This document shows, in pieces, positions 10,222 through 39,101 of a stretch of 41,166 nucleotides of DNA. The position numbers and the translations under genes are program-made. Position 1 is the first letter of the stretch. Each line of letters begins with the position of its first letter. Source of the stretch: Kiritimatiellia bacterium (GTDB lineage Bacteria > Verrucomicrobiota > Kiritimatiellia > RFP12 > UBA1067); the NCBI GenBank assembly GCA_017463935.1, contig JAFUEM010000058.1, positions 1 through 41,166 on the forward strand, written 5' to 3'. The notes under the pieces were generated by a model that had not been told where the DNA came from, searched no databases, and worked only from the letters and a program-made list of their open reading frames with translations.

Positions 10222-10770
10222 ATGAACTGCACACCCGAAAAATGCCCGCACAGGGCGCTGATGGAAAAGGCAAGGGCCGCTTGCCTCGCCTGCGACCACA
10301 TAGAGCCGGCGGGGCATGGCGGCACCGTCTCGTACGACGCCGCTGGCGAGCGCATTGTGCAGCGCGAGAAGGTGGCGTTCGACCGTACCCCGCGAGGGCA
10401 GGTGACTACCCTTCCGGCCGAAGTGGAGGAGCGCACGGCGGAGCTGTACCGCAGATGGTGCGGACTTGACACCATAGACGCCCTGCTCCTTCTGCACGTA
10501 TGCAACGGAGGAACGACCGCCACGTTCGGTGCGTACCTCGACAGGGTGAGACAGGCGATAGACCGCATCGACTGCAAGCGCGAGAGCTACAGGGCCACCG
10601 CGTGGGCCAAGTTCCAGCGTCTGATCCGGCGGTTCGCGCCCTTCCTTCACGGGCGGCTCCATTCGTGGGACGACGGCCACGGTGGAGCGGTGCGCAAGAA
10701 ACGCGAGGGCGCGGAACGTCGGGCGATGCAGGGCGACCTGTTCGACTTCACGGGGGCGAATGATGCGTAA
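10222..10770 (+). CDS. Conserved hypothetical phage protein with N-terminal Cys cluster
   Basis: The 182-residue product starts with CTPEKCPHRALMEKARAACL then ACDH, a C-x4-C...C-x2-C arrangement that could hold zinc. A helical region follows (VEERTAELYRRWCGLDTIDAL, then LLLHVCNGGT and ATSFG-like text at ATFGAYLDRVR) before a basic tail. The helical region loosely recalls sigma-70 region 4 or other small DNA-binding regulators. Such genes often end the early operon and act as late-gene activators. This is an inference; no motif proves it. There is no strong ribosome site before the ATG at 10222. Confidence 0.55.
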   Translation: MNCTPEKCPHRALMEKARAACLACDHIEPAGHGGTVSYDAAGERIVQREKVAFDRTPRGQVTTLPAEVEERTAELYRRWCGLDTIDALLLLHVCNGGTTATFGAYLDRVRQAIDRIDCKRESYRATAWAKFQRLIRRFAPFLHGRLHSWDDGHGGAVRKKREGAERRAMQGDLFDFTGANDA

Positions 10771-22088: not shown

Positions 22089-22805
22089 ATGGTCGCAGAT
22101 CTGGCGAGAGGCGATTTCGAGGACATGCGGGCGGAGGGGCTGAACCCGACGCTCGACGACTTCGACAGGCTGAACCAGCTCGCGCTGCGGCTGGAGGACG
22201 GGCCGGAGACGACGCCCGCGAATCATCCGCGCATCGGCTGGGCGGGCGACGTGCCCTTCCACGAGCCGACTGCATGCGCCATCATGTGGCTGCAGGACTA
22301 CGCCGCGCACGTGAAGTGCGACGCCGAGACGAGGCAGACGTTCTTCTATTTCGCGTGCGCACATGCGACCGACCCTTCCGCGTTCAACGCTCTGGAGACG
22401 CCGCGCCAGATCGAAAAGGCCGTCAAGAGGTGGCTGCGCTCCGTCCCCTGCACCGAACGCGAGATGGCGCGCGCGTGCCACTACGCCACATGGGGCTACG
22501 ACGACGCCGTGGCCGCGCCGTCGCCAATGAAACTGGAGTATCTGCGCCGTTCCGGCAAGTCTGCCGCGGCGGCCAACCTGGAGCGGCTGGAGCGCGTCAT
22601 GGCCGGAGCAGCCTCGTCCTGCGGACTGTCGTATCTCGACCTCATGGCGCAGACCCCTTCGCGGCTGAATGCGCTCGTGGTGGCCGCGCAGGTGGAGGCG
22701 GGCGCCACCGTGTCGCGCGACATGGCGAAGGCCCAGACCGAATACACGATGACGCTTGCGGAAATCCGCAGACGGCTTGAGGCGGAGAAGCGCGATGGCA
22801 AGTGA
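22089..22805 (+). CDS. Tail assembly chaperone candidate
   Basis: The 238-residue helical protein lies directly between the tail tube and the tape measure, the usual site of the tail assembly chaperones. It has a repeated helical layout (MWLQDYAAHVKCDAETRQTF, AVKRWLRSVPCTEREMARAC) and a charged C-terminal helix. No separate frameshifted G/GT pair was recognised; the product appears to be made from one frame. GGAGGGGCG is the ribosome site. The final codons overlap the start of the tape measure. Confidence 0.45.
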   Translation: MVADLARGDFEDMRAEGLNPTLDDFDRLNQLALRLEDGPETTPANHPRIGWAGDVPFHEPTACAIMWLQDYAAHVKCDAETRQTFFYFACAHATDPSAFNALETPRQIEKAVKRWLRSVPCTEREMARACHYATWGYDDAVAAPSPMKLEYLRRSGKSAAAANLERLERVMAGAASSCGLSYLDLMAQTPSRLNALVVAAQVEAGATVSRDMAKAQTEYTMTLAEIRRRLEAEKRDGK

Positions 22806-24333
22806 GGTTGCGATACATCTTTCCACCTACCTGAAGGACGCCGGGATAAAGGCGTCGAAGGCGCAGGTCGAGAAGCTGTCGCGGGACATCAAGAAGCTGA
22901 ACCGCGAGACGCAGCGCGAGACGGAGCGGACGCAGAATGCGCTCGGGAAGCTGCCAGGCGTTTTCGGGAGAATACAGTCTGCCGCGTCCGGCGCGTTCGG
23001 AACCGCGCTCGCCGTGGTCGGCGCGTTCAAGCTGGGATGCGACATCGGACAGTGGCTCAACGACAAGGTGATCATGCCCCTGCTCGGCATCAAAGACCCC
23101 ATCGAGGAGCTGAAGAAGAAGAACAGGGAGATCGAACAGTCGTGGAAGAAGGCCGCAGACGCGTTCGACGAGTCGATGGAGAGGTGGTCGGCCGGATGGG
23201 GAAAGGTCGTGGACGGCGCCGACAAGGCGCGTCAGAAGATCGAAGACCTGGCCGCGGCGTATCTGAAGATGCAGGCCGCGCGCGAGCGGGGCGAGGCGGC
23301 GGCCGGCGACGCGACAATGCTTGCCATGCAACGCGACAAGTTCGACGCAATGGCGGGTGCCGCGACGCCGGAGCAGGCGGCGCAGCTCGGAAAGTACCAC
23401 GACGTGCTGATCGCGGAGGAGCGGTCCAGGCAGACCCTCGCCAAGTTCGACCGCGAAGCCGAGGCGTCCGCAGTGCGGCAGACTGCGGCCGAGAAGGAGC
23501 TGCGCGAGGCCGTGAACAAGCGCGTCGCGCTGAAGCGGCAGATGGCGGAGCTGGACAGGAAGCTGGACTACATGCAGTCGCAGGACAGCGTGTACAAGTA
23601 CGGGTTCGAGGGTTCGATCGAAAAGGAAAAGGAGCTGGAGAAGGACAAGGCAGCGCTCCAGAGGCAGATCGACGCGGCAGACCGCGACGTGAACCGGCGC
23701 AAGGCTGACATTGCGGCCATGTCCGCATCCCGCGCCGCCGAGTCGCAGGAGCGGGAGAACATCGTCGCCCGGACGCGGCTGGAGGTTGACGAGCGGAAGA
23801 AGGCGTACGACGACTACGTGGCCTACGTGGAGGGTGAGGAGATTCGCCACGCCGAGGAGGAATGGAACCGCCAGCAGGAGGAGATTCGCCGCGAGGCCGA
23901 ACTTGAGCTGAAGGAGCGGCAGAGGGTCGAGCGCGAACTTGCGGCGCAGAGGATTGACGACCTGCGGAAGGAGCTGAGCGAGCGCGAGAGGGCCGAGGGC
24001 GAGGCGAGAAGCCGCCAGGGCGCGGCGGAGGGCTCGCTTTCCCAGGCGTGGGGGTGGTATCGCGACCAGTCGAGGATGCAGGCCGTCATCGACGAGCAGA
24101 AGGCCCAGGCCGCCGCCGAGGTGCAGTGGCAGAAGGACTTCGAGCGCCTGAAGACGTGGCGGCGCGACTGGCGCACGGCGGAGTTCGGGTCGCTTTCCGC
24201 GTCGGACGAGGCGGTGCGGCAGGTGGCGTTCGCGAAGGAGGAGAAGGCGGCGGCGGACCGCGCCGTGATCGAGACCGCCGAGAACACCCGCGACCTCGCG
24301 GAGAAGCTGGACGAACTGATCCAGATGAAGTAG
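22795..24333 (+). CDS. Tape measure protein
   Basis: The 512-residue protein is dominated by long charged coiled coils (KLSRDIKKLNRETQRETERT at about 26-45, then REAELELKERQRVERELAAQ). A hydrophobic segment FGTALAVVGAFKLGCDIG lies near residues 66-83, as expected for a membrane-inserting part. By the usual rule of about 0.15 nm of tail per residue, a tail of roughly 75 nm would result. The ATG at 22795 lies inside the end of the preceding gene. Confidence 0.72.
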   Translation: MASEVAIHLSTYLKDAGIKASKAQVEKLSRDIKKLNRETQRETERTQNALGKLPGVFGRIQSAASGAFGTALAVVGAFKLGCDIGQWLNDKVIMPLLGIKDPIEELKKKNREIEQSWKKAADAFDESMERWSAGWGKVVDGADKARQKIEDLAAAYLKMQAARERGEAAAGDATMLAMQRDKFDAMAGAATPEQAAQLGKYHDVLIAEERSRQTLAKFDREAEASAVRQTAAEKELREAVNKRVALKRQMAELDRKLDYMQSQDSVYKYGFEGSIEKEKELEKDKAALQRQIDAADRDVNRRKADIAAMSASRAAESQERENIVARTRLEVDERKKAYDDYVAYVEGEEIRHAEEEWNRQQEEIRREAELELKERQRVERELAAQRIDDLRKELSERERAEGEARSRQGAAEGSLSQAWGWYRDQSRMQAVIDEQKAQAAAEVQWQKDFERLKTWRRDWRTAEFGSLSASDEAVRQVAFAKEEKAAADRAVIETAENTRDLAEKLDELIQMK

Positions 24334-24346
24334 GGAGGTTCTCTTT

Positions 24347-24814
24347 ATGGCCGTCACAGCATCGTACGACAAGTATTTCACAGGTCGCGTCATCCAGCGC
24401 GAATATGCGCAGGAGTTCGACTTCGAGTTCATTCCGAACTACACGGTGGTGACGAGGGACGGCGTGGAGGTGGAGAGGTACATATCATCGTACACGCGGA
24501 ACTTCGTCACGGCGAAGGTCGTCGAGCAGACGTTCCGCTTCCTGGGCATGTCGCGCTCGCTTGCTTTCGGGACGGGCGCGATAACCGTTGCGGATCTCGA
24601 CGGCAACGAATACACGTTCACGCTGAAGACGTCCGTCGCCGACGGCTCGTCCGGATCGCGGGTGATGATCGTCGAGGAGGTGGACGTGCAGCGCATCCCG
24701 ATGTCGCCGCACATGTGGGAGCTGGTCGTCACGCGCAGGGGCTACAGGTACTACGTGAACGGGTCGCACATCCCGCTTTCCGGCGAACCTGCGTGGATGT
24801 CACCTTACGTGTAG
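24347..24814 (+). CDS. Hypothetical distal tail protein
   Basis: The 155-residue beta-rich protein is preceded by GGGAGG. It has repeated aromatic/charged strands (FDFEFIPNYTVVTRDGVEVE, RSLAFGTGAITVADLDGNEY) and an EEVDVQRIPMSPHMWELVVT strand. Placed just after the tape measure, it could be a distal tail or baseplate hub component. No recognised family. Confidence 0.45.
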   Translation: MAVTASYDKYFTGRVIQREYAQEFDFEFIPNYTVVTRDGVEVERYISSYTRNFVTAKVVEQTFRFLGMSRSLAFGTGAITVADLDGNEYTFTLKTSVADGSSGSRVMIVEEVDVQRIPMSPHMWELVVTRRGYRYYVNGSHIPLSGEPAWMSPYV

Positions 24815-24825
24815 GAGGTGCGGAG

Positions 24826-25293
24826 ATGGCTTTTCGCGTAAAGGACGACTTTCAGGCCGGGCGGCCGATGAGCCAGGTGCCGACGGCATGGTTCAACGCC
24901 GTGGGGCATTTCATCAACTGGATTGTCGGCGGATTCGGAATCAAGACGAACAAGAGCGATTCGGGGAAAATGGAAATTTCGCTCGACCGTGATGTGCTGA
25001 GGGCGGAGATCGACAACGCCATGCAGGGCAAGCGCATATCGAAGGAAGCCGGCACCCCGGTTGACTGCACGGACGATCCGAATGTTCTGGACGCAAATGG
25101 AGCGACGATCGAATGGACGGTCGGAGGCAAGAACGGATTCGAGCTCGACTGCTACTGCAAGATCGCGCCGCAGACCGCGACGTCGAACTACAGCGTGTAT
25201 CAGCGATGCCGCCTGACGTTTTCGAGGGACGGACTTCTGGTGAAGGGAAAGCTGCTGGCGGACAGGGTGCGGATCCAGGCGAAGAACGCATGA
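24826..25293 (+). CDS. Hypothetical tail protein
   Basis: The 155-residue product begins MAFRVKDDFQAGRPMSQVPT behind GTAGGAGG. It has a short N-terminal amphipathic helix including WFNAVGHFINWIVGGFG (22-38), then a beta-rich C-terminal half (GKNGFELDCYCKIAPQTATS). The N-terminal segment resembles the attachment peptide of phage fibre or baseplate proteins. The stop codon is followed at once by the CTGTA dyad at 25295. Confidence 0.45.
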   Translation: MAFRVKDDFQAGRPMSQVPTAWFNAVGHFINWIVGGFGIKTNKSDSGKMEISLDRDVLRAEIDNAMQGKRISKEAGTPVDCTDDPNVLDANGATIEWTVGGKNGFELDCYCKIAPQTATSNYSVYQRCRLTFSRDGLLVKGKLLADRVRIQAKNA

Positions 25294-25451: not shown

Positions 25452-25486
25452 TTGACGGCTGGTCCAAATGCGGAGGTAGAACGATG
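25452..25486 (+). promoter_or_regulatory. TTGACGG...CGGAGGT gene-junction block, copy 2
   Basis: TTGACGGCTGGTCCAAATG leads to CGGAGGT and an ATG at 25484, 32 bases after the first T. This is the only copy whose TGA is not the stop of a called upstream gene. Confidence 0.55.
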
Positions 25487-25975
25487 GATCAGATAAACGC
25501 AGAGGTCGATTGCGACGTGTCGCGGCTTGACTTTCCGCTGCGGCCCTTCAAGGCGCGGGCGGGGCACAGCTTCGTCGCGCTTTTCCGGCGCGTCCCCGCG
25601 GACGTCACCGGGCTGTTCGTCCGCGTGTTCAAGGGGAACGGCGCGTACTTCGACGTGACGGGGCACGAGCACCCGGACGGAGGCTGGACGGTGCGCATAC
25701 CCGCCGCGTGCTTCCCGAACGTGGGCGAGTTCAGCTATGAGGTTCACGCCGTTGCGGCGGACGACCAGCCGACCGCGATAGGCGAGGGGCGGCTTCTCGT
25801 GGGGCCGTTCAGCACGACCACGGCGCCGGTCGCTCCGGGGACCGTGCAGGAGGTGGCGCAGCTCCCGTGCGAGGGAGGCGGCTTCGTGCAGGTCGTGATG
25901 AAGTACGACGGCTTCGAGTGGATGCCGGAGGCGGTCGTGTCCGCCACGGCGAACAACGGAACGGAGGGCGAATGA
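25484..25975 (+). CDS. BppU-like baseplate/fibre adaptor candidate
   Basis: The 163-residue protein has an immunoglobulin-like beta pattern (HSFVALFRRVPADVTGLFVR, then WTVRIPAACFPNVGEFSYEV). This resembles N-terminal adaptor domains of baseplate upper proteins that hold receptor-binding fibres. The same type of domain occurs at the N-terminus of the protein at 30117, which also has a TTGACGG block before it. The C-terminal part (FVQVVMKYDGFEWMPEAV) ends in a low-complexity tail. No signal peptide. It opens the fibre region. Confidence 0.45.
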   Translation: MDQINAEVDCDVSRLDFPLRPFKARAGHSFVALFRRVPADVTGLFVRVFKGNGAYFDVTGHEHPDGGWTVRIPAACFPNVGEFSYEVHAVAADDQPTAIGEGRLLVGPFSTTTAPVAPGTVQEVAQLPCEGGGFVQVVMKYDGFEWMPEAVVSATANNGTEGE

Positions 25976-26478
25976 TGAGGAAGCTGGCAATAGTCCTGAC
26001 GGCCAAACTGTGTTTGGCGTCGCAGCTGGCGTTCGGCATCGCGGCATCGCAGGCGTGGGTCGAGAACTACGTCTCGAACTACGTGGCGAGGACGGCGGCC
26101 GAGGTGCAGGCGGGAACGGTGACGGTGCACACCAACGGAAGCATGGTCGTGACGGCCAATCAGGGAAGGACGAACGAGATGCGCCTTGTCGTGCCGGACT
26201 TCACGGACGCGGCGATGATCGCCACGAACTGCACGATGCATGCGGAGGCGCGTGGAATAACAAACGGGACCGTCTTCGTGTGGAATGGCGCGGGGGCGTA
26301 CATAAATCCGCGTGCCATAATTTCCTGCACGTCCACGAACCTCGTGCTGGAGGGCGTGGGGTCGGTCACGACCGACGGCCTTGAACGATTCGCCGGATGG
26401 TTCGACGCATACGGAGGGCTGATTCAGGCGGACACGAGTTTTGCGATCACGAACGGCATGACGGAGGTGCATCAATGA
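25972..26478 (+). CDS. Secreted protein in the fibre region
   Basis: The 168-residue product starts with a clear Sec-type signal (MRKLAIVLTAKLCLASQLAFGIAA, starting at either Met), with cleavage likely near residues 22-27. The mature part begins with SQAWVENYVSNYVARTAAE, an amphipathic segment, then beta-rich repeats (ITNGTVFVWNGAGAY, NLVLEGVGSVTTDGL) of the fibre or tail-spike style. An ATGA overlap links it to the preceding gene and to the next gene. Export would take it away from virion assembly in the cytoplasm, which is unexplained. Confidence 0.55.
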   Translation: MMRKLAIVLTAKLCLASQLAFGIAASQAWVENYVSNYVARTAAEVQAGTVTVHTNGSMVVTANQGRTNEMRLVVPDFTDAAMIATNCTMHAEARGITNGTVFVWNGAGAYINPRAIISCTSTNLVLEGVGSVTTDGLERFAGWFDAYGGLIQADTSFAITNGMTEVHQ

Positions 26479-28865
26479 AATACGCGGCATACGGGCTTCT
26501 GGCGGCGTTTCTCGCCCTGGGGGTATATGGAGCCATACCCACGACTGCGGAGGGCTGGTACACCCCTTCCGGCGGCTTTTCGCGGCAGTCTGGCAGCGGC
26601 ACGGTGTGGTATCTCGACGACGAGGGGAACGAGCGGTCTGTCTCTGTTTCGGTGGACGGCCAAGGGAAGGTCACCGGCGGCATGGAGTCGATAGCCGACA
26701 CGACGCTCAAGACGTCGTACGAGGCTTTGGTCAAGGCATGCGCGAACGAGGCGTGGAACGCCCTGCAGGACGAAGCGATCGCAACCATAGGCAAGAACCT
26801 TCACAACCTCGGACTCGCGGATGGGATCGACATCGTGGGCACCGACCCAAACGGGAACGAGCACAGGTACACGATGCGCTTCACGCCCGGCAGCGGCATC
26901 CGCGATTCGCTGGACGACGGATCGCGTCCGGAGCTGACCGACCCGACGGCCGGCTGGAACATGGCCGACGAGAAGACCCTGCACTGGCGGACGAACAACA
27001 AGATGGAGCTGATGGGCGCGGACACCGCCACGTCTTCGACGGACGAGTGGTGGAACGACTACGGCTTCTTCGTTCCGTTCCTCAAGGGGACGGGGGCGCT
27101 CGGATGGAAGAAGTACGGAGGATGGTACGACGGCGTGTTCGGGACGATGACGAGCGACGGGCGGACGATGCTTACGCTGGCCGGATGGACGGGCGGGCAC
27201 GAGTGCAGCACCGACATGAACAGCATACTGACCGAGGAGAACGGAGACAACCGGGCCAACCACTATGTGCTGACGCGGTACGGCACCGGCTCCGACGCGG
27301 TATTCCACTACGTCCCCTTCGGAGACAGGCTGGAGACCGGGGGCGGTGCGCCCGTGGACGGCGTCTCGATAACCACGAACACCACGGACGGCGCGACGAC
27401 GCAGGGCGACGCGTCCCTTTACGGATGGGCCGACGCGGACGCCGAAAGCATCCCGCAGAAAGGCGACGGACGCCTGAAGTGGACGGATCCAGCCGATATG
27501 GTGGACGGAATCTCGATCGGCATGACGGATGCCGAAGGCGGCGGGAAGGTCTGGGAGGTGAAGGACGCCCACGTGTACGCGGGGCAGCACGCGAAGCACT
27601 ACTTCGGGACCGGCAACGACAAGTCCGCGCCTCTCGGATGGCATGAGCTGCCGAACGCGACGACGAACCGCGTGGAGGGCGACGAAGTGACGATATCGAG
27701 CGACCCGAACGTGCCGGGGGCGCAGCCGGAGGAGGGTCTGAAACGCCTCGGTCTGCGCGGCTGGAACTACGGCTGGGCGGGCGATCCGCTTTTCCTCGTG
27801 AACCAGGGCGGGGTCATGGGGTACATCCCCCTTCCGGCGATAACGAACCTTGCGGCTTGCGCCTGCACGAACAAGTGGAACGCGCTCCTCGGATGGATTC
27901 AAGACGGAGAGCTGAATGGCGAGGACGGGATAGCATTCTCGGACTCGAATCTCGACCAGTACCTCTACGGAACGCTCGGCTACATCTACAGCACGACGGC
28001 GGACAACCTCTACTTCGACAACGACGGGGAGCAGATACAGGCGTCGTTCACCGCTCCGGAGAACTGGGCGGACGGCAACAGCGTGGAGCTGACGGAGAGC
28101 GGGCAGTACCAGATAAAGGGCTTTGCCGACGCGGGCGCGTGCGGGGCGAGCGTGAGCGCGATGCTGTCGGACCCGACCGGAAGCGACGCCACGACGCACC
28201 TGATGCTCGCCAAGAAGACCGACACCGGGGAGCTGCACTACGTTCCGATGGGGCGGGGCGTGGCCGGAGGCGGGGAGCATGCGGACGGCGTGACGATCAC
28301 GACGAACGACACGCAGGGCGCGGCGACGCAGGGGCTCATGTCGCTCTACGGATGGTCGAGCGCGCAGGACGGCAAGGTGCCGATGAAGAAGAACAACGCG
28401 CTTGTCTGGGAGGACGCCGGAACGCCGCCGGACGACGTGACGCTGGCCGTGACGACGGAGGGAAGCGGGGCGCAGCAGACGAAGAAGCTGTCGATCAAGG
28501 GATTTTCCGCCGCGAAGAACAACTCGATACCGTGGAAGAACGACGAGGGCGAGTTCGTCTGGGGCGGATCTTCCACGGTCACGAACCGCATACTCGCCGG
28601 CGCCGGGATCAACATCACCGACAACGGCGGCGGAGCGGTCACGATATCCGCGCAGTCGTTCGACAGCGGCGGGTCGGGGGGCCAGACCATCGTCCTGTCG
28701 GTGATTACCGACATACGCTACAACGAGGAGACGCACAAGTTCCAGTGCAAGCGCCGCACGATAACCTTCAAGGGATCCGTGTCCGATGCGCCGCAGGAGG
28801 GCGAGGAGTGGGAAGATGTGTTCGAGGCGGTGAGCCACAAGAGCGAGCACGAGGAGGGCAACTGA
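26475..28865 (+). CDS. Large tail-fibre-like protein with signal peptide
   Basis: The 796-residue protein has an N-terminal hydrophobic signal (KYAAYGLLAAFLALGVYGA) and a long repetitive Gly/Thr/Asp-rich body. Two segments are clear paralogues: one around residue 295-345 with DGVSITTNTTDGATTQ and SLYGWADAD, and one around 600-650 with DGVTITTNDTQGAATQ and SLYGWSSAQ. Both match the beta-rich stalk repeats of phage fibres. Near the C-terminus NRILAGAGINITDNGGGAVT is a typical fibre motif. The C-terminal region (YNEETHKFQCKRRTITFKGS) is globular. A fibre gene with its own Sec signal is abnormal; the protein may be displayed on the cell or be a non-virion adhesin. Confidence 0.6.
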   Translation: MKYAAYGLLAAFLALGVYGAIPTTAEGWYTPSGGFSRQSGSGTVWYLDDEGNERSVSVSVDGQGKVTGGMESIADTTLKTSYEALVKACANEAWNALQDEAIATIGKNLHNLGLADGIDIVGTDPNGNEHRYTMRFTPGSGIRDSLDDGSRPELTDPTAGWNMADEKTLHWRTNNKMELMGADTATSSTDEWWNDYGFFVPFLKGTGALGWKKYGGWYDGVFGTMTSDGRTMLTLAGWTGGHECSTDMNSILTEENGDNRANHYVLTRYGTGSDAVFHYVPFGDRLETGGGAPVDGVSITTNTTDGATTQGDASLYGWADADAESIPQKGDGRLKWTDPADMVDGISIGMTDAEGGGKVWEVKDAHVYAGQHAKHYFGTGNDKSAPLGWHELPNATTNRVEGDEVTISSDPNVPGAQPEEGLKRLGLRGWNYGWAGDPLFLVNQGGVMGYIPLPAITNLAACACTNKWNALLGWIQDGELNGEDGIAFSDSNLDQYLYGTLGYIYSTTADNLYFDNDGEQIQASFTAPENWADGNSVELTESGQYQIKGFADAGACGASVSAMLSDPTGSDATTHLMLAKKTDTGELHYVPMGRGVAGGGEHADGVTITTNDTQGAATQGLMSLYGWSSAQDGKVPMKKNNALVWEDAGTPPDDVTLAVTTEGSGAQQTKKLSIKGFSAAKNNSIPWKNDEGEFVWGGSSTVTNRILAGAGINITDNGGGAVTISAQSFDSGGSGGQTIVLSVITDIRYNEETHKFQCKRRTITFKGSVSDAPQEGEEWEDVFEAVSHKSEHEEGN

Positions 28866-30088
28866 TGAAGCGCTTCGCGTTGGCGGCGTTCGCCGTGTCC
28901 GCAGTCTGCGCTGCGAACGCCATGCACATACAGATCGGCGCGTCCGGATGGTCGAGGCGTGCCGGACAGTGGATTGACGGCAGCGTCGGGATCGGCGCGA
29001 CTGCCGGAACGCTGTCGAGCCAGATCTGCGCGGCGTATGGATGGACCGACTACGGAAGCTACTACTACTACGTTCCGCTGGGCGCTAAGAGGATAACCAC
29101 CAGCAGCGCGTCGTGGACCGAATCGTGCTACGTGAGGTTCATTCCGGGCGGAGGGCTTTCTCTGTACGCGGCGACGACAAGCCCCGACTATACGGAACAG
29201 TACGGGGCGAGGCGGTTCACCGCGGCGGAAACCGTGTCGCTCGGCACGTTTGGCTACACGAGCCAGTACCATAACTACGCCTGGGACCATGCCGTGATAA
29301 CGATCCGGGGCGATCCGTACAGCACAGTCCTGAACGATACCGACACCGACAGGACGGTGAACGGCGTCCGCATTCCGGCCGGAGAGGCCCGTGCGTTGCC
29401 CTTCCCGATATATCTTGTCATGGACGAGATCGAGAACGTGAAGTTCTACGACCTGGAGAGCGGCGACGAAATAACATGCCGGGACTTCGCGTCGTACGGG
29501 GAGAGCGGCGTGTACTACAACTGGCGCGGCGGCTACTACTGCCCGTCGTGGACGGGGAACATACGGTTCAGCGACGGCACGTCCAAAGCGGACAGAACGC
29601 CCCCGGCGGAGCCGCTTCTGTTTGGCGACATGGCGACGGCCAACGCGGACAGGATTCTGTACGCCCGGAACGACATGCCGATATACGCGGACGGCAAGGT
29701 GGTTTCGACGAACATCCAGTTGCAGACCTGGTGGGACTTCGACCAGAACGCGTGGGGCGGTTCGCCGCTGGCGTACATAAACGACACGTGCGTGTGCAGC
29801 GGGCACAGCACGTCGCACATAATCGCGTACACGGTCTCGACCGCGGGCATGAAGGTGTACGCCGGAACGGGGTATGTCGATTTCACGATGTGGCAGACGC
29901 CGCAGAGCGGCTACAGCGGCGGGAGCTGCACGATGAGGTGCTGGGATGCGGCGATGGGAAGTTCGACGAGCGCGTACGCGAACACGCCCGCCGGGCACAA
30001 GGCGGAGGTTTCGGCGGGTCTGGGAACGGCGAGGTTCCGCCTGAAGGTGAATGTAAAGACCGGCACGTGGTCCGTCTATCCGCTTTGA
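28865..30088 (+). CDS. Secreted Tyr/Cys-rich protein of unknown function
   Basis: The 407-residue product has a strong signal peptide (KRFALAAFAVSAVCAANA, cleavage likely after ANA). The mature part is rich in Tyr, Ser, Gly and Trp (YGSYYYYVPLGAKRITTSSA, GESGVYYNWRGGYYCPSWTG), with scattered Cys pairs (CVCSGH, CTMRCW) that could form disulfides in the periplasm or outside the cell. A basic C-terminal strand ends FRLKVNVKTGTWSVYPL. No known family is recognised. The ATG at 28865 overlaps the preceding stop, and the stop lies within TTGACGG block 3. Confidence 0.5.
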   Translation: MKRFALAAFAVSAVCAANAMHIQIGASGWSRRAGQWIDGSVGIGATAGTLSSQICAAYGWTDYGSYYYYVPLGAKRITTSSASWTESCYVRFIPGGGLSLYAATTSPDYTEQYGARRFTAAETVSLGTFGYTSQYHNYAWDHAVITIRGDPYSTVLNDTDTDRTVNGVRIPAGEARALPFPIYLVMDEIENVKFYDLESGDEITCRDFASYGESGVYYNWRGGYYCPSWTGNIRFSDGTSKADRTPPAEPLLFGDMATANADRILYARNDMPIYADGKVVSTNIQLQTWWDFDQNAWGGSPLAYINDTCVCSGHSTSHIIAYTVSTAGMKVYAGTGYVDFTMWQTPQSGYSGGSCTMRCWDAAMGSSTSAYANTPAGHKAEVSAGLGTARFRLKVNVKTGTWSVYPL

Positions 30089-30119
30089 CGGGCGGTCCAT
30101 ACATGGAGGAATGACGATG
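30085..30119 (+). promoter_or_regulatory. TTGACGG...TGGAGGA gene-junction block, copy 3
   Basis: TTGACGGGCGGTCCATACA, TGGAGGA and the ATG at 30117 repeat the pattern seen at 17082, with the stop codon of the secreted protein at bases 2-4. Between copies 1 and 3 most bases from TTGACGG to GGAGGA agree. Confidence 0.65.
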
Positions 30120-31646
30120 GCGATACCAACCATACTGAAAGGCGAGACGGCGAAGCCGATACGGCTTGCGCTGGCTGACGGCTACGACTACGCCGGATGC
30201 TCGCTGCACGTGGACTTCTGCAGAACGCGCAGCACGTTCGTGGAGCTCAATGCCGGCGGAAGCCTGGAACTGCGCTTCACGGCGGAGCAGACGGCAGGAT
30301 TTCCGCTCGGCACGTCGAAGGCGATGCTTTCGCTGGAGAACGCGGCCGGAAAAATTCGCTTCATGCCCTGGGCGAAGATCAAGGTGACTGATTCGCCCGC
30401 AGACCTGTACGACGCGCAGATCACCATAGACCCCGCGACGCTGAACGTGGACGACCTGACGAGGAGCGACAACCCCGATGTCGTGAAGTCGCGCGTCAAC
30501 GCAATCCTTGCCTTTTTGCGCGGCCTGAAGGTGCTTGCCCTTGCGCTGATCCCTCTCGGCATTCTGGCAGACGTGACGCCGAAGTATGCCATTTCAGACT
30601 ACATACCGGGTGACATGCCGATCATGACGAACGTCGAGGAGTTCGTCGAGGCGAAGATGGCGGAGGCCGGAAAGGTCAAGAGCGTAAACGGCAGGACGGG
30701 CGCGGTCGTGCTTTCGGCGCCGGACGTCGGCGCGCTTGCGGCGGACGGCACGGCCTTTCGCGCATCGTCCGTCGGAAGCGCGGAGAGGTGGACGGACGCG
30801 ACCGGGTGCGTATGGCAGGCAACCTTCGACGTGGCGCGTGACTGGTGGACGATAGAGCCTGCGGAGAGCGCCGGGGGAATGTCCGTCTTCTGGGACGGCG
30901 ATTCGTGGGTGCTGCGGTACGAGGGCTACAACAACGACACGGGGCATGGAGCCGATGTGTACAGTTTCGGGTTCCGCCTTGGAATCCAGTACACGGCGAC
31001 GCGGCATCCGGGAGGGGCGGCGACCCTCGTTGACAGGGTTGCGCTCCAGTCGCAGATTCCGGGCGACTACGCGATCGTGAGCAATAGAGCTGTGAACGCC
31101 GTACAGCGGGATGACTTTGACACCGAAATGTATGCCAAGAGGGACATGGGCGACATCGACGTTGACGGATGGATGCTGACTGGTCCGGACGGGCGGCGTG
31201 AAGTGCTGTGGTACTCTGTTGGCAATGGCGGTGACGTGCAGTCGTGGTACAGTTCGGACATAAGCAGATATATCGTACATTTTGGAGTAGGCACCACGTC
31301 GATGTGGACACTCTCTGTCGATACCGAACAGAGAACCGTTTCCGGTCCGGCTAACGTGACAGAACTGTCGTTCGATTATGGCGGCACAAAGGTTTACAGG
31401 GCGGTTCGGATAAACAGTCGCTTTGTGTTTGAGTCTGATTTGGCGGCGGCGACGAACGCGCTGGCCGCGAAGATAGTCGCGCCGGACGTGATCGCGACGA
31501 ATCTCGTCAAGACCGTCATCAGCAACTCGCTCTACAACCTTACCTACGATGCGGCGCTCGGCGTGACATGGCAGAAGACAGCCGAGGGCGGGGCGTTCTA
31601 CGAGAGGTGCTACACAAACATAAACATGATAGGGGTCAGGCCATGA
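30117..31646 (+). CDS. BppU-like domain protein with internal membrane segment
   Basis: The product has 509 residues from the ATG at 30117, which is well spaced from GGAGGA; another ATG at 30111 is too close to that site. The N-terminal 115 residues (ILKGETAKPIRLALADGYDY, TAGFPLGTSKAMLSLENAAG) resemble the BppU-type adaptor domain of Siphoviridae baseplates. A hydrophobic segment FLRGLKVLALALIPLGILAD (about 132-151) follows and looks like an internal signal-anchor with the motif ILAD at its end. The remaining 350 residues are beta-rich and fibre-like (VNGRTGAVVLSAPDVGALAA is a classic phage collar/fibre motif). The fusion of a baseplate adaptor to a membrane anchor is unusual. Confidence 0.55.
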   Translation: MAIPTILKGETAKPIRLALADGYDYAGCSLHVDFCRTRSTFVELNAGGSLELRFTAEQTAGFPLGTSKAMLSLENAAGKIRFMPWAKIKVTDSPADLYDAQITIDPATLNVDDLTRSDNPDVVKSRVNAILAFLRGLKVLALALIPLGILADVTPKYAISDYIPGDMPIMTNVEEFVEAKMAEAGKVKSVNGRTGAVVLSAPDVGALAADGTAFRASSVGSAERWTDATGCVWQATFDVARDWWTIEPAESAGGMSVFWDGDSWVLRYEGYNNDTGHGADVYSFGFRLGIQYTATRHPGGAATLVDRVALQSQIPGDYAIVSNRAVNAVQRDDFDTEMYAKRDMGDIDVDGWMLTGPDGRREVLWYSVGNGGDVQSWYSSDISRYIVHFGVGTTSMWTLSVDTEQRTVSGPANVTELSFDYGGTKVYRAVRINSRFVFESDLAAATNALAAKIVAPDVIATNLVKTVISNSLYNLTYDAALGVTWQKTAEGGAFYERCYTNINMIGVRP

Positions 31647-32896
31647 AGCGTTCAGTCGTGATTGCCCTTTCGCTGCTTTCGATGTGCGCGGCGGCGAAGA
31701 CTAACGAGATTTTCACATCGGCCATCGAGTCGCCCTATGTGTACGGACTCGACGGCGCGAAGTATGAAGTGTTGGACGGCGAGGTTGTGGAGGCTCGCCC
31801 GCTGCTGCGCATGGCGCTGCCGGACGGCGCGGCGATAAGCGCGGACGGCATCACGCCGACCGTGAACTACACGAACATAAACGGCGTGGCGCACACCCGC
31901 GTCATGATCGACTTCTCCTGCAACTTCGACTGGAGGGGATGGCATCCGTTCATCCAGCACGTCACGTACGGCGGCACGAGGTCGCGGCTTGAATTGCAGG
32001 AGGACAGCGTATATCTCGGAGGGGATGCGCGTTCAGGCGTCTCGTCCTATCGCTACGCATGGCACGGCTATGTCGTGGGCTACGCGCCGCCGTCGCAGAG
32101 CGGATATTATTCCGTCTCGGTGGAGCCGGAGCCATACGACGGAGAGGACGCCGGGGATGGATACTACATCGTCACGCCGTCCGGAGAGAACGCGCCCGCG
32201 CGTGTGCAGTATGTGACGATCGACCAGCGCGGCAACATCTCGCCGTCTGGCGCGGTGGCGACGATCGCGCAAGCCGCGGCCACGGAGACGAGACTTGCCG
32301 CCGCGGAGGTTGCGGCGGTCGCGTACACGAACGCGGAGGCGCAGACAGAGGCGGCGGTGGACGATCTCGCGGCGGCGATCATCGGACAGAGCCTCGTCGT
32401 GTACGAGGACGACTTCATGTATTCGCTCGGGGACGCGATAGCGATCTCCACGAACTGCCACTGCCGCATCTACGACTTCAAGGCGAAGGTTTCGCAGGTG
32501 ACGGTGGACGGCGTGTTGTGCGACCGCTCCTGGGTGTACTTCGGATTCACGGAGAACATCGGCAGCCTGAACCCCGTCGCGCAGTTCAAGGATTCGCTTT
32601 CGTCCGACCTCGACTGGGGCGAGATAACGTGCGGAACGCCGGAGGTGCAGGACCATTCCTTCGTCGTAAACGGCGAACCCTTCGACTACTGCTACCGCAT
32701 GAGCGTGGACATTCCGCACACGCTCGCATCTGCGTTTCTGCGGGTGTACACGGAGATTACGTCTCAGGTGGGTGATGGGAGCGTGCTGAACATCGTCGGC
32801 GGAATCGCGGGCGGGATGACGGGCACCGTCACATGGGGCGCGAATACGCTGGAGTTCGTCGGCGGGCTGGCCGTCGAGCCGGAGGTGTCGCCATGA
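31643..32896 (+). CDS. Secreted fibre-like protein with coiled-coil segment
   Basis: The 417-residue product has a signal peptide (KRSVVIALSLLSMCAAAKT). Beta-rich regions follow (RTNIN-like text at YTNINGVAHTRVMIDFS; SQSGYYSVSVEPEPYDG). A heptad-like helix TIAQAAATETRLAAAEVAAV at about 210-230 resembles trimerising stalks of phage fibres and autotransporter adhesins. It ends in an elongated C-terminal domain that is Gly/Val-rich (LNIVGGIAGGMTGTVTWGAN). The function is unknown. Overlaps its neighbours by ATGA. Confidence 0.5.
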   Translation: MKRSVVIALSLLSMCAAAKTNEIFTSAIESPYVYGLDGAKYEVLDGEVVEARPLLRMALPDGAAISADGITPTVNYTNINGVAHTRVMIDFSCNFDWRGWHPFIQHVTYGGTRSRLELQEDSVYLGGDARSGVSSYRYAWHGYVVGYAPPSQSGYYSVSVEPEPYDGEDAGDGYYIVTPSGENAPARVQYVTIDQRGNISPSGAVATIAQAAATETRLAAAEVAAVAYTNAEAQTEAAVDDLAAAIIGQSLVVYEDDFMYSLGDAIAISTNCHCRIYDFKAKVSQVTVDGVLCDRSWVYFGFTENIGSLNPVAQFKDSLSSDLDWGEITCGTPEVQDHSFVVNGEPFDYCYRMSVDIPHTLASAFLRVYTEITSQVGDGSVLNIVGGIAGGMTGTVTWGANTLEFVGGLAVEPEVSP

Positions 32897-33360
32897 TCGA
32901 GACGTTCCAGAGGTTCGTGACGGCGGCGTGTCTTGCGGCGTTTGCCGTGTCGTTCGCCGCATGGGCGCTCTGCGCGATGCGCAGGCCGCTTGACGTGATG
33001 CTTTCGCGTGTGCGCCGACATCCGTGGGCGGCGATCATCCTCTCCCCTGCCGTGTTCGCGCTGTTCGTGTACGGTTCGACCAAGCCGGACCCGATCACGC
33101 CGACCGTGCGCGGCATCACACTCGGATCCCCGATGGAAACGCCGTCGAGCGTCGCCCTGGAGTGGAAGGCCGACGAGGGCCGGGAGATACGGACCAACCA
33201 GCTTGTGCGCGTGTACTGGCGCGACGCCTACACGCCGTGGACGCTCGCGGCGGAGGGCTACGGCATGACGAACGCCGTCATCAACGGCTTTTTCGTCAAC
33301 CGCGACACGGACTGGATGGTGGAGGTCGAGGACGACGAAGACGAGGGGGGCGGAGAATGA
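32893..33360 (+). CDS. Membrane-anchored protein of the secreted cluster
   Basis: The 155-residue protein has two hydrophobic segments, FVTAACLAAFAVSFAAWALC (8-27) and AAIILSPAVFALFVYG (about 46-61). A soluble C-terminal domain of about 90 residues follows with strands such as SVALEWKADEGREIRTNQLV, ending in an acidic tail. It is tightly coupled to both neighbours by ATGA overlaps. The layout suggests an inner-membrane anchor with an exported domain, perhaps holding the secreted proteins beside it. Confidence 0.5.
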   Translation: MIETFQRFVTAACLAAFAVSFAAWALCAMRRPLDVMLSRVRRHPWAAIILSPAVFALFVYGSTKPDPITPTVRGITLGSPMETPSSVALEWKADEGREIRTNQLVRVYWRDAYTPWTLAAEGYGMTNAVINGFFVNRDTDWMVEVEDDEDEGGGE

Positions 33361-34151
33361 GACGGCTTGCACTGATTCTGGCCGCGCTTCCGTTCGCGGC
33401 GCTGGCCGACGCCGCTCCGCTTCTCGGGGCGGAAGCCGAGACGAGGACGAACATCGTCTCGAACGTTGCGACGGTGCGGCAGTGGTCGCGGCAGTACGTG
33501 TTCGTGGACGGAGCCGGAGAGCTGCACGATCCGTCCGGACGGCTTGTCGCCTACGCCGACGAGGTGGGGCGGCAGAACCGGGCGGAGGATGTGCGGCTGG
33601 TGATACAGGGGGCGCACGACGGCATGACGAACGCACTCCAGCGGGTGTACGACCTGACGAACCGGGTGCCGGAGCGCGGCGTCGCGCTGCGCTTCTCGAT
33701 GAAGCCGTCCGCGGAGCGGCGGAACTTCTTCGCCTACATCGTGGACGAGGAGACCGACGGCACGAACGACGTGGCGCGGTACTACTTTTCGCACGTCCTG
33801 GACGTGCCGCCGAAGATCCAGCGCAGATACCGCTCGGCCGATTCGTCGGTGTTTGTCGAGGGCGAATGGCTGGACTATTCGACAAACGGCGTATCCGTCG
33901 TGGACGCGCAGGGCATCGTCTGGAACGGGTGCAACGCGATCCGCTTCACGCGTCCGCAGTGGGCGGTGGGTTATCCGGCGCGCCCCAACAGGCACTGCAC
34001 GATAGGCCATCCCGTGAGCGGACTCGACTTCGCCGGCGCGATGGTGTTTGTGGACGGCCGCCCGACGCTGACGGGCTACGTCACCAACGGGCTTCAGCGC
34101 ATCTACTTCGACAACGGCGTATACAAGGGAACGGAGGTCATCGAGGAATGA
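33357..34151 (+). CDS. Secreted protein with beta-rich body
   Basis: The 264-residue product begins with a signal (RRLALILAALPFAALADAAP, cleavage likely near ALA). The mature part begins with an Arg-rich helix (NIVSNVATVRQWSRQYV), then VYDLTNRVPERGVALRFSMK and a beta-rich body with DYSTNGVSVVDAQGIVWNG. No known family is recognised. It overlaps the membrane-anchored gene and the next gene by ATGA, so the set is one operon. Confidence 0.5.
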   Translation: MRRLALILAALPFAALADAAPLLGAEAETRTNIVSNVATVRQWSRQYVFVDGAGELHDPSGRLVAYADEVGRQNRAEDVRLVIQGAHDGMTNALQRVYDLTNRVPERGVALRFSMKPSAERRNFFAYIVDEETDGTNDVARYYFSHVLDVPPKIQRRYRSADSSVFVEGEWLDYSTNGVSVVDAQGIVWNGCNAIRFTRPQWAVGYPARPNRHCTIGHPVSGLDFAGAMVFVDGRPTLTGYVTNGLQRIYFDNGVYKGTEVIEE

Positions 34152-34603
34152 AACGAATCGTGTTTTCGCTCGTCGCGATTGCGGCGATTGCGGCATTTGG
34201 CATGACAGAGACGGAGCGTCGGTATCTGCGGATGCTCGCGGAGCGCCCCAGGTGCGAGGCGCGGGAGCGCGTCGTGATCGGCGGTACGACCAACATCGTC
34301 GAGACGTGGCGGCGCGGCGGCTACGAATGGAAGCAGACGAACGCCGTCCGGCGCGTGATCGGGACCGTCCAGCGCAACACCTTCGAGGAGAAGGTTGCGG
34401 AGGCGCGGGCGTTGGCCGCCGAGTACGAGACGGACGCCAAGGCGATTCGCGATCTTCGCAAGTCCGCGAAGAAGACGGCGAAGAACCTTGAAAAGCTGCG
34501 CAAGAACATCGAGAAGGCGAAGAAGCAGTCGCAGGACGCCGACGAACTCGCATTCTACATCGCGCTTGAACAACTCGTCATGGATGCGCAGGAGGGGAAC
34601 TGA
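34148..34603 (+). CDS. Secreted coiled-coil protein
   Basis: The 151-residue product has a short signal peptide (KRIVFSLVAIAAIAAFG) and a long basic/acidic coiled coil from about residue 75 to 135 (DLRKSAKKTAKNLEKLRKNI). The N-terminal mature segment contains NIVETWRRGGYEWKQTN, with an NIV start also seen at the mature N-terminus of the preceding protein (TRTNIVSN). It could be an exported scaffold or an Rz-like coiled-coil spanin part, but the region lies upstream of the lysis genes. Confidence 0.45.
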   Translation: MKRIVFSLVAIAAIAAFGMTETERRYLRMLAERPRCEARERVVIGGTTNIVETWRRGGYEWKQTNAVRRVIGTVQRNTFEEKVAEARALAAEYETDAKAIRDLRKSAKKTAKNLEKLRKNIEKAKKQSQDADELAFYIALEQLVMDAQEGN

Positions 34604-34992
34604 TGAATACGATTGCGATGCTTGCCGTTTCCGCCGTGCTGGTGACGAACGCCGCGCCCGTCTCGATCGCGTCCATGACGCCGAGGGAGCGGATGGAGTG
34701 GCGCAAGGCCCAGACGCAGAGGATGCACGACGCGCTAAAATGGGACGAGGCGCGGCGCGAGGCGTTCCGCTACGAAGTCCGCAAGAGGCGTCTGAACCGG
34801 GCCGCCGCCGACTTCCTGAATGTCTCGGAGCCGAGCAACGCGGTCGTGTCCGTGAGCGTGGACTACAGGAGCGGCGACATCCGCGTCGTTTACGCCGACG
34901 GCTACAGGCTGATCCAGAGGTTCACACCGCCGAAGCCGGTCAAACCGAAAGTGGTTGCCCGGCCGAAGCCGAAGAAGAAGGAGGGCTACTGA
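34603..34992 (+). CDS. Small secreted basic protein
   Basis: The 129-residue product has a weak signal peptide (NTIAMLAVSAVLVTNAAPVS), a helical region (RKAQTQRMHDALKWDEARRE) and two strands (NAVVSVSVDYRSGDIRVVYA). A Pro/Lys-rich tail follows (PPKPVKPKVVARPKPKKK), which would be suited to crossing or binding the cell wall, like TonB or spanin linkers. No family is recognised. Coupled to the preceding gene. Confidence 0.45.
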   Translation: MNTIAMLAVSAVLVTNAAPVSIASMTPRERMEWRKAQTQRMHDALKWDEARREAFRYEVRKRRLNRAAADFLNVSEPSNAVVSVSVDYRSGDIRVVYADGYRLIQRFTPPKPVKPKVVARPKPKKKEGY

Positions 34993-34993: not shown

Positions 34994-35335
34994 ATGTGCA
35001 TGAGAGCTACCGAGGAGGGCTGCGTGCTTGCCGCGCAGCAGAATGAGCTGAAGGAGCGCGTGTCCGTGCTTGAACGCGACGTAGCCAACATCCGCGCGGA
35101 GACGCAGGCGGGGTTCAAGCAGGGCGCGGAAACCATGCGGGAGATCAACACGTCCGTCGCGAACCTTGCGCACGACTTCGCTCAGCGTTTCAACAACATG
35201 GAGGCTACCGTGGTTTCGGAGAAGGTGGAATGGGGCAAGACGCTTCGGAAAATCGCGCTGTGGTCTGCGATGGTTCTTCTGTCGGGCTGTGCCGTCGCGA
35301 TGGGCGTGACGATATACAAAAACTTCTTCCATTGA
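34994..35335 (+). CDS. Holin-like/XhlA-like protein
   Basis: The 113-residue product has an N-terminal charged coiled coil (QNELKERVSVLERDVANIRA at about 16-35, then more helix) and a single C-terminal membrane segment (IALWSAMVLLSGCAVAMGVT, about 86-105) with a short basic tail. This is the XhlA/hemolysin-type layout of many phage lysis cassettes. The ATG at 34994 or 35000 may be used. Its stop is in TTGACGG block 4. Confidence 0.55.
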   Translation: MCMRATEEGCVLAAQQNELKERVSVLERDVANIRAETQAGFKQGAETMREINTSVANLAHDFAQRFNNMEATVVSEKVEWGKTLRKIALWSAMVLLSGCAVAMGVTIYKNFFH

Positions 35336-35368
35336 CGGGCGGTCAGAATACAGGAGGTTCAACAGATG
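35332..35368 (+). promoter_or_regulatory. TTGACGG...CAGGAGGT gene-junction block, copy 4
   Basis: TTGACGGGCGGTCAGAATA, CAGGAGGT and the ATG at 35366 give a 34-base spacing. The stop codon of the holin-like gene is at bases 2-4, as in copies 1 and 3. Confidence 0.6.
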
Positions 35369-35791
35369 GAAGACAAGGAAAAGGTAGGGCGGCTGCTTCA
35401 CAAGGCGGTCGGGATCGGGCTGGATGGCGTCGACTTCGTGACGAAACTCGGCTTCGCCACCGTCTGCCGCGAATACAACGGCATCGGGCCGGAGTTCTTT
35501 CCGCCGACGCTCCGCGCGAAGGTGACCGAGTGGCTTGGGCTGTTCGAGCCGGCCGCGCTGATACACGACCTTCGGAACTACCAGTCGGACGGCATGCGGC
35601 ATGCGTTCAACTACGCGAACTACGAGTTCTTCGCCAACTGCCGCAAGTGCGCCGCAGCCGAATACAGGTGGTGGAGCTGGCGCAGATACCGCGCCTACGC
35701 CATAGCGAAGGTTCTGTACGATTTCGTGAGCGGCGATCCGGGCTGGAGGGCCTGGATGGACTGCTACGAGAAAACCCACAAACAAAACTGA
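35366..35791 (+). CDS. Conserved lysis-cassette protein of unknown function
   Basis: The 141-residue protein contains NGIGPEFFPPTLRAKVTEWL (37-56), then EPAALIHDLRNYQSDG, and an aromatic helical part (ANYEFFANCRKCAAAEYRWW). The IHD motif followed by a Tyr and Gly-rich turn recalls DUF1353-like and small phage enzymes, but no catalytic triad can be shown. It lies between a holin-like and a lipoprotein gene where an endolysin would be expected. It is therefore the best candidate for the missing lysis enzyme, with low certainty. Confidence 0.45.
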   Translation: MEDKEKVGRLLHKAVGIGLDGVDFVTKLGFATVCREYNGIGPEFFPPTLRAKVTEWLGLFEPAALIHDLRNYQSDGMRHAFNYANYEFFANCRKCAAAEYRWWSWRRYRAYAIAKVLYDFVSGDPGWRAWMDCYEKTHKQN

Positions 35792-35801
35792 AAGGAAACA
35801 G

Positions 35802-36368
35802 ATGAAGAAACTACTCGTAGTGATTGCGCTGGCCGCTTGCGCGGCGGCGATCACAGGATGCAAGAGCATTGAGGTCGAGCGCCACGCGCAGAGCCTCGCC
35901 ACGATCCAAAACGCGGACGGCACAGTGTCCGTCGTGAAGGATGCCGCGAACAACCCCGTCGTTCTCGACGGCGGATGGGAGGTGGACTACTTCCAGCACT
36001 GGAACTGGCAGAAGTTCGACAGCCTCGCCGCCAAGACGAAGGAGGCCGAACTTTCGATCAACAACTACGAGGGCGGAGCTGACGCGACGAACCTGACGCA
36101 GCTGGTGCATACGTCCCTCGAAGGCCTGACGAAACTCGTCGCGACGGCGGCCGACGCCTACGTGAAGGTGGCCGGAGGCGGAGCGCAGGCCGACACGGCG
36201 CTCAACGCCGCGAAGAAGATGATCGAATACTTCGCTGAGAAGGGAGGCGACGTGTCGAAGGCGGTCGTCACCACCGACACCGCATCCAACACCGTGAAGG
36301 TGTCGGACGGCACGACGTGCATTTCGTGCGATGCCGCAGGGAACTGCACCGACTGTACGGCGAAGTGA
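35802..36368 (+). CDS. Phage lipoprotein, possible outer spanin or surface protein
   Basis: The 188-residue product has a lipoprotein signal peptide with lipobox ITGC at about 17-20, behind AAAGGAAACAG. The mature part is mostly helical (TNLTQLVHTSLEGLTKLVAT) and ends with a Cys cluster, CISCDAAGNCTDC. It is larger than typical Rz1 and not proline-rich, so a surface-exclusion or superinfection lipoprotein is an equally good idea. It is the last gene of the plus-strand late operon. Confidence 0.55.
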   Translation: MKKLLVVIALAACAAAITGCKSIEVERHAQSLATIQNADGTVSVVKDAANNPVVLDGGWEVDYFQHWNWQKFDSLAAKTKEAELSINNYEGGADATNLTQLVHTSLEGLTKLVATAADAYVKVAGGGAQADTALNAAKKMIEYFAEKGGDVSKAVVTTDTASNTVKVSDGTTCISCDAAGNCTDCTAK

Positions 36369-37850: not shown

Positions 37851-37910
37851 ACGGTTTTTCGCGGAACCCTTATTTTACAGGGGTTATATTATATCATAAT
37901 TTGCTCGTCA
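37851..37910. other. Putative attachment site region and composition break
   Basis: Between the integrase leader and the LRR gene the sequence turns from GC-rich to AT-rich. The leucine-rich-repeat reading frame is cut in the middle of a repeat, after SVTS: the codons for GTGACGAGCA continue as AATTATGATATAA on the minus strand. This is what insertion of a prophage into the LRR gene would leave at its right junction. The core att sequence cannot be fixed without the left junction. Confidence 0.45.
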
Positions 37911-39087
37911 CGCTATCTGGAATCACTACACTAGTCAAGTTCCTGCAATAATAAAACGCATCCAACCCTATGCTCGTCACGCCGATACTAAATGTTATAT
38001 TCGTAAGTCCATAACATTGCCGAAAGGCATAATCCCCAATACTCGTGACGCTGGCGGGAATCGTCACACTCGTCAAATTCGTGCAGAGATAAAACGCCCA
38101 GCTATCAATGCTCATCACGCCGTCAGGTATCGTCACATCTCTGGAAACACCACTTATGAGCTTTTTACCATCCTTTGTTAGCAGTAGTCCCGAGACGGAT
38201 TTATAGGCGGAGTTTCGTTCGTCAACTATAAATTGCTCCATGCTGTTGCAACCATCAAACACCTCACTTCCAATGCTCGTCAGACCTCGCCCTATCATCA
38301 CACTCGTCAGCCCACTGCAAAACGAAAACGCATTATCCCCGATACTTATCACGCCATCCGGAATTGTAATGCTCGAAAGACCAGTGCATGCGTAAAATGC
38401 CCGATACCCTATGTTCGTCACCGCGTCAGGCATTTTCACGAGCGTCAGAGTGTCACATCTTTCAAAGGCACAGCTTCCAATGCTTATCACACTGTTAGGA
38501 ATCAACACACTCGTCAATCTCCTACAACTTGCAAATGCAGAATCGCTAATGCTTTTCACGCCAGCAGGAATCGTAACATCTCCATTGATACCATAGATGA
38601 GCGTTTTCCCATCCTTTGTCAACAGAAGTCCCGACACGGACTTGTAGGCAGAGTTTTGTTCGTCTACGGCAAAGGACTCAATGCCACTCCCATAAAATAC
38701 CGAAGACCCGATCTCGACCACGCCAGAACCAAATGCTACGTGCGTCAGCGAACTGCAACCCCTGAAGGCATAATCTTCAATACTAGTCACACTGGCCGGG
38801 ATTGTCAAACTTACCATCTCTCGACAACTATAAAACGCATACCTAGCAATTTTTGTCACAGGATAACCACCAAGCACGGACGGGATTTCAATCGCACCTA
38901 CCACAGACCGTGGCATGGCAGGAAAGGATTGTGACCCACCTCCAATTGACGCTTTCCCATTTGAGACAGTATATGTCCATGTAATTCCATTGACGGTTTC
39001 TGTATGTGTTGTGTCTGCATTGGAGCCCAAAGCCATCACCAAAATGACGCTGCAAATACAAATTCTCAAGATTCGGAAAGTGTTCAT
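37894..39087 (-). CDS. BspA-type leucine-rich-repeat surface protein, probably truncated by the prophage
   Basis: The 397-residue product begins with a Sec signal (NTFRILRICICSVILVMALG). At least ten BspA/LRR_5-type repeats of about 23 residues follow (pattern LTSVTIPxSVTSIGxxAFxxC; two longer units contain NSAYKSVSGLLLTKDGK). It ends abruptly as VVIPDSVTSKL, within a repeat, at the phage junction. AAGGAAGG before the ATG at 39087 is the ribosome site; a TTG start at 39105 is unlikely. BspA proteins are surface adhesins of gut and oral bacteria. DNA composition is AT-richer than the prophage. Confidence 0.82.
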   Translation of the reverse strand: MNTFRILRICICSVILVMALGSNADTTHTETVNGITWTYTVSNGKASIGGGSQSFPAMPRSVVGAIEIPSVLGGYPVTKIARYAFYSCREMVSLTIPASVTSIEDYAFRGCSSLTHVAFGSGVVEIGSSVFYGSGIESFAVDEQNSAYKSVSGLLLTKDGKTLIYGINGDVTIPAGVKSISDSAFASCRRLTSVLIPNSVISIGSCAFERCDTLTLVKMPDAVTNIGYRAFYACTGLSSITIPDGVISIGDNAFSFCSGLTSVMIGRGLTSIGSEVFDGCNSMEQFIVDERNSAYKSVSGLLLTKDGKKLISGVSRDVTIPDGVMSIDSWAFYLCTNLTSVTIPASVTSIGDYAFRQCYGLTNITFSIGVTSIGLDAFYYCRNLTSVVIPDSVTSKL

Positions 39088-39101
39088 TGAAATCCTTCCT
39101 T

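Follow-up and report, generated by a model that had tools for sequence, protein, structure and literature searches.

A putative tail-fibre module with conserved Sec-type signal sequences in Kiritimatiellae prophages

On the accepted view, tailed phages assemble entirely in the cytoplasm, which makes export signals on their fibre genes unexpected. The prophage described here raises the question of why the genes lying where its tail fibres should be carry such signals almost throughout, and whether their products belong to the virion or to the host envelope. The stretch of DNA analysed, hereafter the window, is a complete contig of 41 kb, belonging to a metagenome-assembled genome of 2.8 Mb, and holds a siphophage-like prophage whose head genes resemble those of lambda. 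The close phage relatives that bear names come from goat abomasum and from other Kiritimatiellae/Verrucomicrobia metagenome genomes, which makes a member of the Kiritimatiellae from the ruminant gut the most likely host.

Prophage setting and layout of the block

The genes framing the block are as follows, the head genes being assigned to PHROGs 38, 21, 4523 and 122.

12758, terminase, head gene
15544, portal, head gene with PHROG match
17115, protease-capsid fusion, head gene with PHROG match
19111, decoration protein lacking a signal peptide (SP), head gene with PHROG match
21268, tube-like protein
22795..24333, + strand, tape-measure-like protein, 5' context of the module
24347-24814 and 24826-25293, + strand, two small SP-less tail proteins separating the tape measure from the module, an order kept in relatives
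34994..36368, + strand, presumed lysis-side genes, family unassigned (34994, C-terminal TM protein; 35366; 35802, lipoprotein-like)
36634, minus strand, integrase

The tape-measure-like protein, without match in the PHROG search, is named for its position after the tube-like protein and for its coiled sequence. Elsewhere in the window, at 11860-12750 and 6880-8442, lie an HMC alpha-glucosyltransferase PHROG match (E=5e-64) and a cytosine-methyltransferase-like gene recognised by eye, a pair that makes hypermodification of the prophage DNA possible. Adjoining the integrase, 37894-39105 (minus strand) encodes a BspA-type leucine-rich-repeat protein (Pfam LRR_5, 3.6e-75) with an apparent signal peptide, either a host gene or cargo.

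The nine genes at 25972-34992 form, together with the SP-less gene at 25484, a tightly coupled run 3' of the tape measure and one late operon. A second docking-type protein without SP (25484-25975) is thus added to the unit given in the preliminary description, and the start of the BppU-like protein is corrected from 30111 to 30117. The members are lettered A to J.

A, 25484..25975, + strand, SP-less docking-type protein of 163 aa that opens the module, 33-88% identical to homologues in the same position
B, 25972..26478, + strand, Sec SP, conserved 'IAASQAWVENYVSNYV' helix and small beta domain, 168 aa
C, 26475..28865, + strand, Sec SP and large body with repeats, 796 aa
D, 28865..30088, + strand, Sec SP, protein of 407 aa with conserved C-terminal half
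E, 30117..31646, + strand, BppU-like Ig domain (residues 1-105), coil and internal signal-like helix (129-147 by the scorer, 137-151 in the domain layout), 509 aa
F, 31643..32896, + strand, Sec SP and body of 417 aa with an Ala-rich stretch
G, 32893..33360, + strand, two membrane helices (8-26 and 45-63) followed by 'YGSTKP', 155 aa
H, 33357..34151, + strand, Sec SP, protein of 264 aa with homologues in L075 and L077
I, 34148..34603, + strand, Sec SP, helical protein of 151 aa, SP in 3/3 homologues
J, 34603..34992, + strand, probable Sec SP, basic protein of 129 aa, the least certain member

Reading frames are intact in all nine block genes, and every start is ATG. The ATGA coupling described earlier holds in part: neighbouring genes overlap by 4 bases (ATGA) or by 1 base (TGATG), with the sole exception of a 28-base gap 5' of 30117. 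No promoter-like site stands out on the coding strand of the block, the count of sigma-70-type sites not exceeding that in shuffles, a measure to be read with the proviso that host promoters may differ.

Signal sequences and their conservation

Signal peptides were called with a home-made heuristic scorer (n-, h- and c-region plus positions -3/-1) together with evolutionary conservation, a Sec type-I signal being defined by a basic n-region, a hydrophobic core of 7-15 residues and small residues at -3/-1 in N-terminal position. The seven products for which Sec-type signals had been claimed (25972, 26475, 28865, 31643, 33357, 34148 and 34603) display all these features and score 12.0-14.8, against a background in which a single upstream window gene of 32, encoding a 62-aa TM protein, reaches 11.5 (7/10 block genes versus 1/32; Fisher p=3e-5). 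Positives are comparably rare among the upstream genes of relatives (3/85) and the genes of outgroup phages (3/125). When whole proteins are shuffled, 0-3% of the shuffles attain the cut-off score; under the stricter shuffling of the first 30 residues five block proteins are individually significant (0-2.3%), whereas 25972 (13%), 34603 (9%) and 32893 (17%) are not, so that for 25972 the case for an SP depends on its conservation across 12 homologues. The claims of two membrane helices in 32893 and of an internal anchor in 30117 were likewise borne out, the latter as one signal-like helix after the BppU-like domain.

Chance hydrophobic N-termini are ruled out by the background rates and the homologue conservation, and wrong start codons by the ATGA/TGATG coupling in the window and, in relatives, by starts that are likewise coupled and have RBS-like sequence. 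An argument from disulfides via even cysteine counts was dropped, the counts being mixed.

Relatives from the same genus and other genera of the family were found by portal, 26475 and profile searches, and IMG/VR and GTDB supplied further contigs. Synteny of the module extends over about a dozen prophages and viral contigs of several genera; where the region is complete enough, the order is tape measure, two small proteins, A, B, C, usually D, and E; F, G, H and I follow 3' of E with varying completeness. The signal peptide is present in every homologue of B (12/12), C (11/11), D (5/5), H (3/3) and I (3/3), across genera and at GC contents of 48-62%, and the module is kept in G025, a contig of 48% GC. 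A standard signal occurs in three of five F homologues, the others being L035, with a weaker score, and L077, with N-terminal TM helices. J is the least certain member because no homologue was found among the relatives compared, and a convincing SP was seen in none of 11 homologues of A. Homologues of G carry a single SP/TM segment directly before GSTKP/GGTKP/GSKPP, a motif that abuts the membrane helix in the window (32893-33360), L035, L036, L047 and L077; the domain after YGSTKP is presumed to lie on the periplasmic side.

In B, the SP region has a mean pairwise identity of 30% with its hydrophobicity kept, whereas the following 15 residues reach 56%. Among five close members of the C family the signal (76%) is as conserved as the stretch after it (72%), which limits the argument from diverged but still hydrophobic signals to B and E; in the latter the internal helix shows 32% identity with a mean KD of 2.0-2.4 in all seven proteins tested. 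Such a pattern indicates signals kept by selection, and from the sequence evidence as a whole we regard the export signals of the block proteins as very probably real.

Docking domains, fibre bodies and replaced fibre genes

In the E family the docking domain is about 60% identical and the body 22%, a conserved docking part with a variable body that bears the mark of fibre and receptor-binding proteins. An AF2 model of E residues 1-105 (pLDDT about 80) is Ig-like. It aligns with 3uh8 (TP901-1 ORF48, the BppU of that phage; Z 6.4, 90 residues aligned, rmsd 2.9), although unrelated Ig-like proteins score equally, and with 6v8i_AK (Z 6.5), phage baseplate and neck proteins at Z 6.4-7.3 scoring the same as unrelated Ig-like folds; sequence searches of PDB and Pfam with this domain gave no match. 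A is proposed, from its sequence pattern, to be BppU-like as well.

The part of E beyond the helix begins with 'IPGDxPIMTN' and continues as a fibre body carrying the collar motif VNGxTGAVxLxxxDVGA, with tail PHROG matches of 6.9e-5 to 1.4e-3. The helix ends in a signal-peptidase-like [AGS] site in 13 of the 13 proteins that have it. In L035 and G025 the BppU part and an SP-bearing body are two ATGA-coupled genes (L035:9963-10427 and 10424-10759, reverse strand numbering), the C-terminus of this body matching that of E (E=1e-3), and in L089 the A domain is joined to a fibre body via an internal TM helix. Docking and body parts are separable at the signal: some phages make them as one chain, others as two products. 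An internal start that would yield a separate SP protein inside 30117 was also considered, with a possible TTG in the window and ATG in G064; G079 and L047 have CTG at this position, and no internal start codon is conserved across the family. One fibre-body type, ending in a trypsin-like GGDSG, stands behind three different N-termini, each with an internal helix (L034:12932-14821; L089 8685-10955 and L090 10180-13317, both reverse strand), and is possibly self-processing or a secreted protease.

Further fibre features accompany signals elsewhere in the family: L047 has the collar motif and a tail-fibre PHROG match (1.6e-7) behind its helix, L032 a protein with Sec-like SP and fibre repeats (tail-fibre PHROG, 5.8e-5), and G070 a homologue of B with SP and tail-fibre repeats. 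The C body of the window matches, at E=4.5e-9, the SP-less tail protein L042_9827, which an outgroup phage encodes shortly 3' of its tape measure; this match is moderate and lies within a repeat-bearing domain. L036_6809 is matched weakly. Identity among D homologues is 30-45% over the aligned part. Of the fibre-like repeats and coiled coils ascribed to 26475 and 31643, the repeats were recovered in 26475, whose body contains two 62-residue copies 53% identical; the coiled coil of 31643, judged by eye, is only an Ala-rich stretch. Fibre features are absent from the smaller products H, I and J, tail-fibre PHROG searches with 25972, 26475, 28865 and 31643 were without match, and sequence searches of the block against Pfam and PDB returned nothing useful. 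The structure of 25972 (pLDDT 65; BFVD matches all at E>0.2, best PDB Z 3.1) was uninformative, and the model of the 30117 body (pLDDT mostly <50) not interpretable. IMG/VR scans with 26475 and 30111 alone as queries and an INPHARED tblastn gave no match.

The placement of the block where tail fibres should be was upheld by its location in the tail module, 3' of the tape measure, in both the window and relatives. In outgroup phages of the same genus, with portals 36% identical, the fibre region is SP-less apart from sporadic positives of the scorer, which include a terminal gene with an SP; the block therefore replaces SP-less fibre genes rather than accompanying them, and the host does not impose it. 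In L089 every gene between the tape measure and the presumed lysis genes has an SP or an internal helix, and this phage would have no tail tip if block-type proteins were not virion parts. It is likely from these comparisons that the block proteins descend from tail fibres and most probably still serve as such.

Route to the virion and competing explanations

We give an even chance to the reading that the block is the tail-tip/fibre module of this phage group, its fibre bodies being made with cleavable Sec signals. During late expression, the signal-less docking proteins (25484 and residues 1-105 of 30117) would remain in the cytoplasm with the growing tail, while the bodies (25972, 26475, 28865, the C-terminal part of 30117, 31643 and others) would pass to the periplasm. 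Since the signal of 30117-type proteins lies between docking domain and body, the chain would either remain threaded through the inner membrane or be cleaved at that membrane by signal peptidase. Most economically, the bodies would meet the particles during lysis or later, once the contents of periplasm and cytoplasm mingle; alternatively, tails may be finished while tethered to the inner membrane. That the bodies join virions in either way is the guess that fits best, though it could equally well prove wrong. If signal peptidase does cleave the 30117-type proteins, body and docking domain would be left separate and would have to rejoin, which weighs against this reading.

The preliminary description had left two readings side by side, an unusual fibre route and a host-surface system, and the former is now favoured by the replacement of fibre genes, the fibre-type evolution, the PHROG domains and L089. 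Fibre-derived bodies acting on the host envelope, in display of binding domains, phage exclusion or adhesion during lysogeny or late infection, are a less probable but serious possibility, since signal peptides would place them directly there, and relatives carry the body with the trypsin-like GGDSG motif. A precedent for one SP protein among tail genes is lambda Lom, an outer-membrane protein made in lysogens whose gene lies between those for tail and fibre (PMC12309495), and a survey of diversity-generating retroelements (DGRs) takes signal peptides to mark surface-displayed bacterial proteins rather than phage ones (PMC6199706). Lom and other SP-bearing lysogenic-conversion proteins of tail regions resemble the block in being encoded by SP-bearing genes within a tail module, but they differ in that Lom is a single outer-membrane barrel on its own, next to fibre genes that remain intact, whereas the block comprises nine genes, replaces the fibres and keeps phage docking-type domains. 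At least one relative, L089, would on the host-envelope account be left without a tail tip, and a coupled late operon without a promoter-like site of its own argues, weakly, against a surface system expressed in lysogeny.

Hydrophobic segments can occur in tail-tip proteins, and the N-termini might accordingly go unused by Sec, forming buried trimer stalks or membrane-penetrating segments of fibres assembled in the cytoplasm; the internal helix of 30117, coming after a coil, would suit a trimeric stalk. We consider this improbable, given that members encoded as separate ORFs repeatedly show basic n-regions and small residues at -3/-1, that a small -1 residue recurs after the internal helices, and that the B sequence varies freely with its n/h/c layout retained. 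The position of the block directly before the presumed lysis genes and the membrane helices of 30117 and 32893 would also accommodate 30117-type proteins as inner-membrane tethers, whose BppU-like domain binds tails in the cytoplasm and whose exported partners time or complete lysis, but the bodies are large, variable and fibre-like, unlike lysis proteins, which makes this very improbable. SAR endolysins and spanins are, like the block, products of late phage genes with Sec signals; they are short lysis proteins or enzymes, whereas the block encodes long variable repeat proteins with docking partners.

With the fibre modules of Caudoviricetes (BppU-type modules of TP901-1 and 80alpha, and 'VNGxTGAV' collar fibres) the block shares its position 3' of the tape measure, an Ig-like docking-type N-domain, the VNGxTGAVxLxxxDVGA motif, and a conserved N-terminus before a variable body; it differs in the Sec-type signals, or the internal signal-like helix, that stand in front of its bodies. 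To our knowledge, known tail fibres are made without export signals. The filamentous (inovirus) coat proteins pIII and pVIII are virion components that Sec translocates ahead of assembly, as it may the block proteins; they differ in non-lytic extrusion and the lack of a cytoplasmic capsid, and no sequence relation to the block was seen. In the open-access literature, a scope leaving out most subscription journals, neither an SP-bearing fibre module, a fibre-exporting tailed phage nor these phages themselves were found.

Outside the fibre region, the gene directly 3' of the major capsid gene begins with a Sec-type SP in four relatives (L074:2618-3013; L049:2406-3047; L053:1634-2245; L089 3302-3853, reverse strand), the window counterpart being the SP-less decoration protein; the slot proteins of L074 and L049 were tested for homology to decoration proteins, and none was found. 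We speculate, tentatively and with more doubt than confidence, that a tailed-phage lineage completes its particles outside the cytoplasm, Sec-exported fibre bodies and, in these four relatives, a decoration-slot protein attaching at or after lysis.

A conserved fibre module with Sec signals, if true, would break both the rule of wholly cytoplasmic assembly and the equation of signal peptides with bacterial surface proteins. Either virions would be completed in the periplasm or once the cell has lysed, or fibres would have given rise to prophage surface systems of a new class. The module also calls for caution in annotation pipelines that discard SP-bearing proteins when phages of this phylum (Verrucomicrobiota) are searched for receptor-binding proteins.
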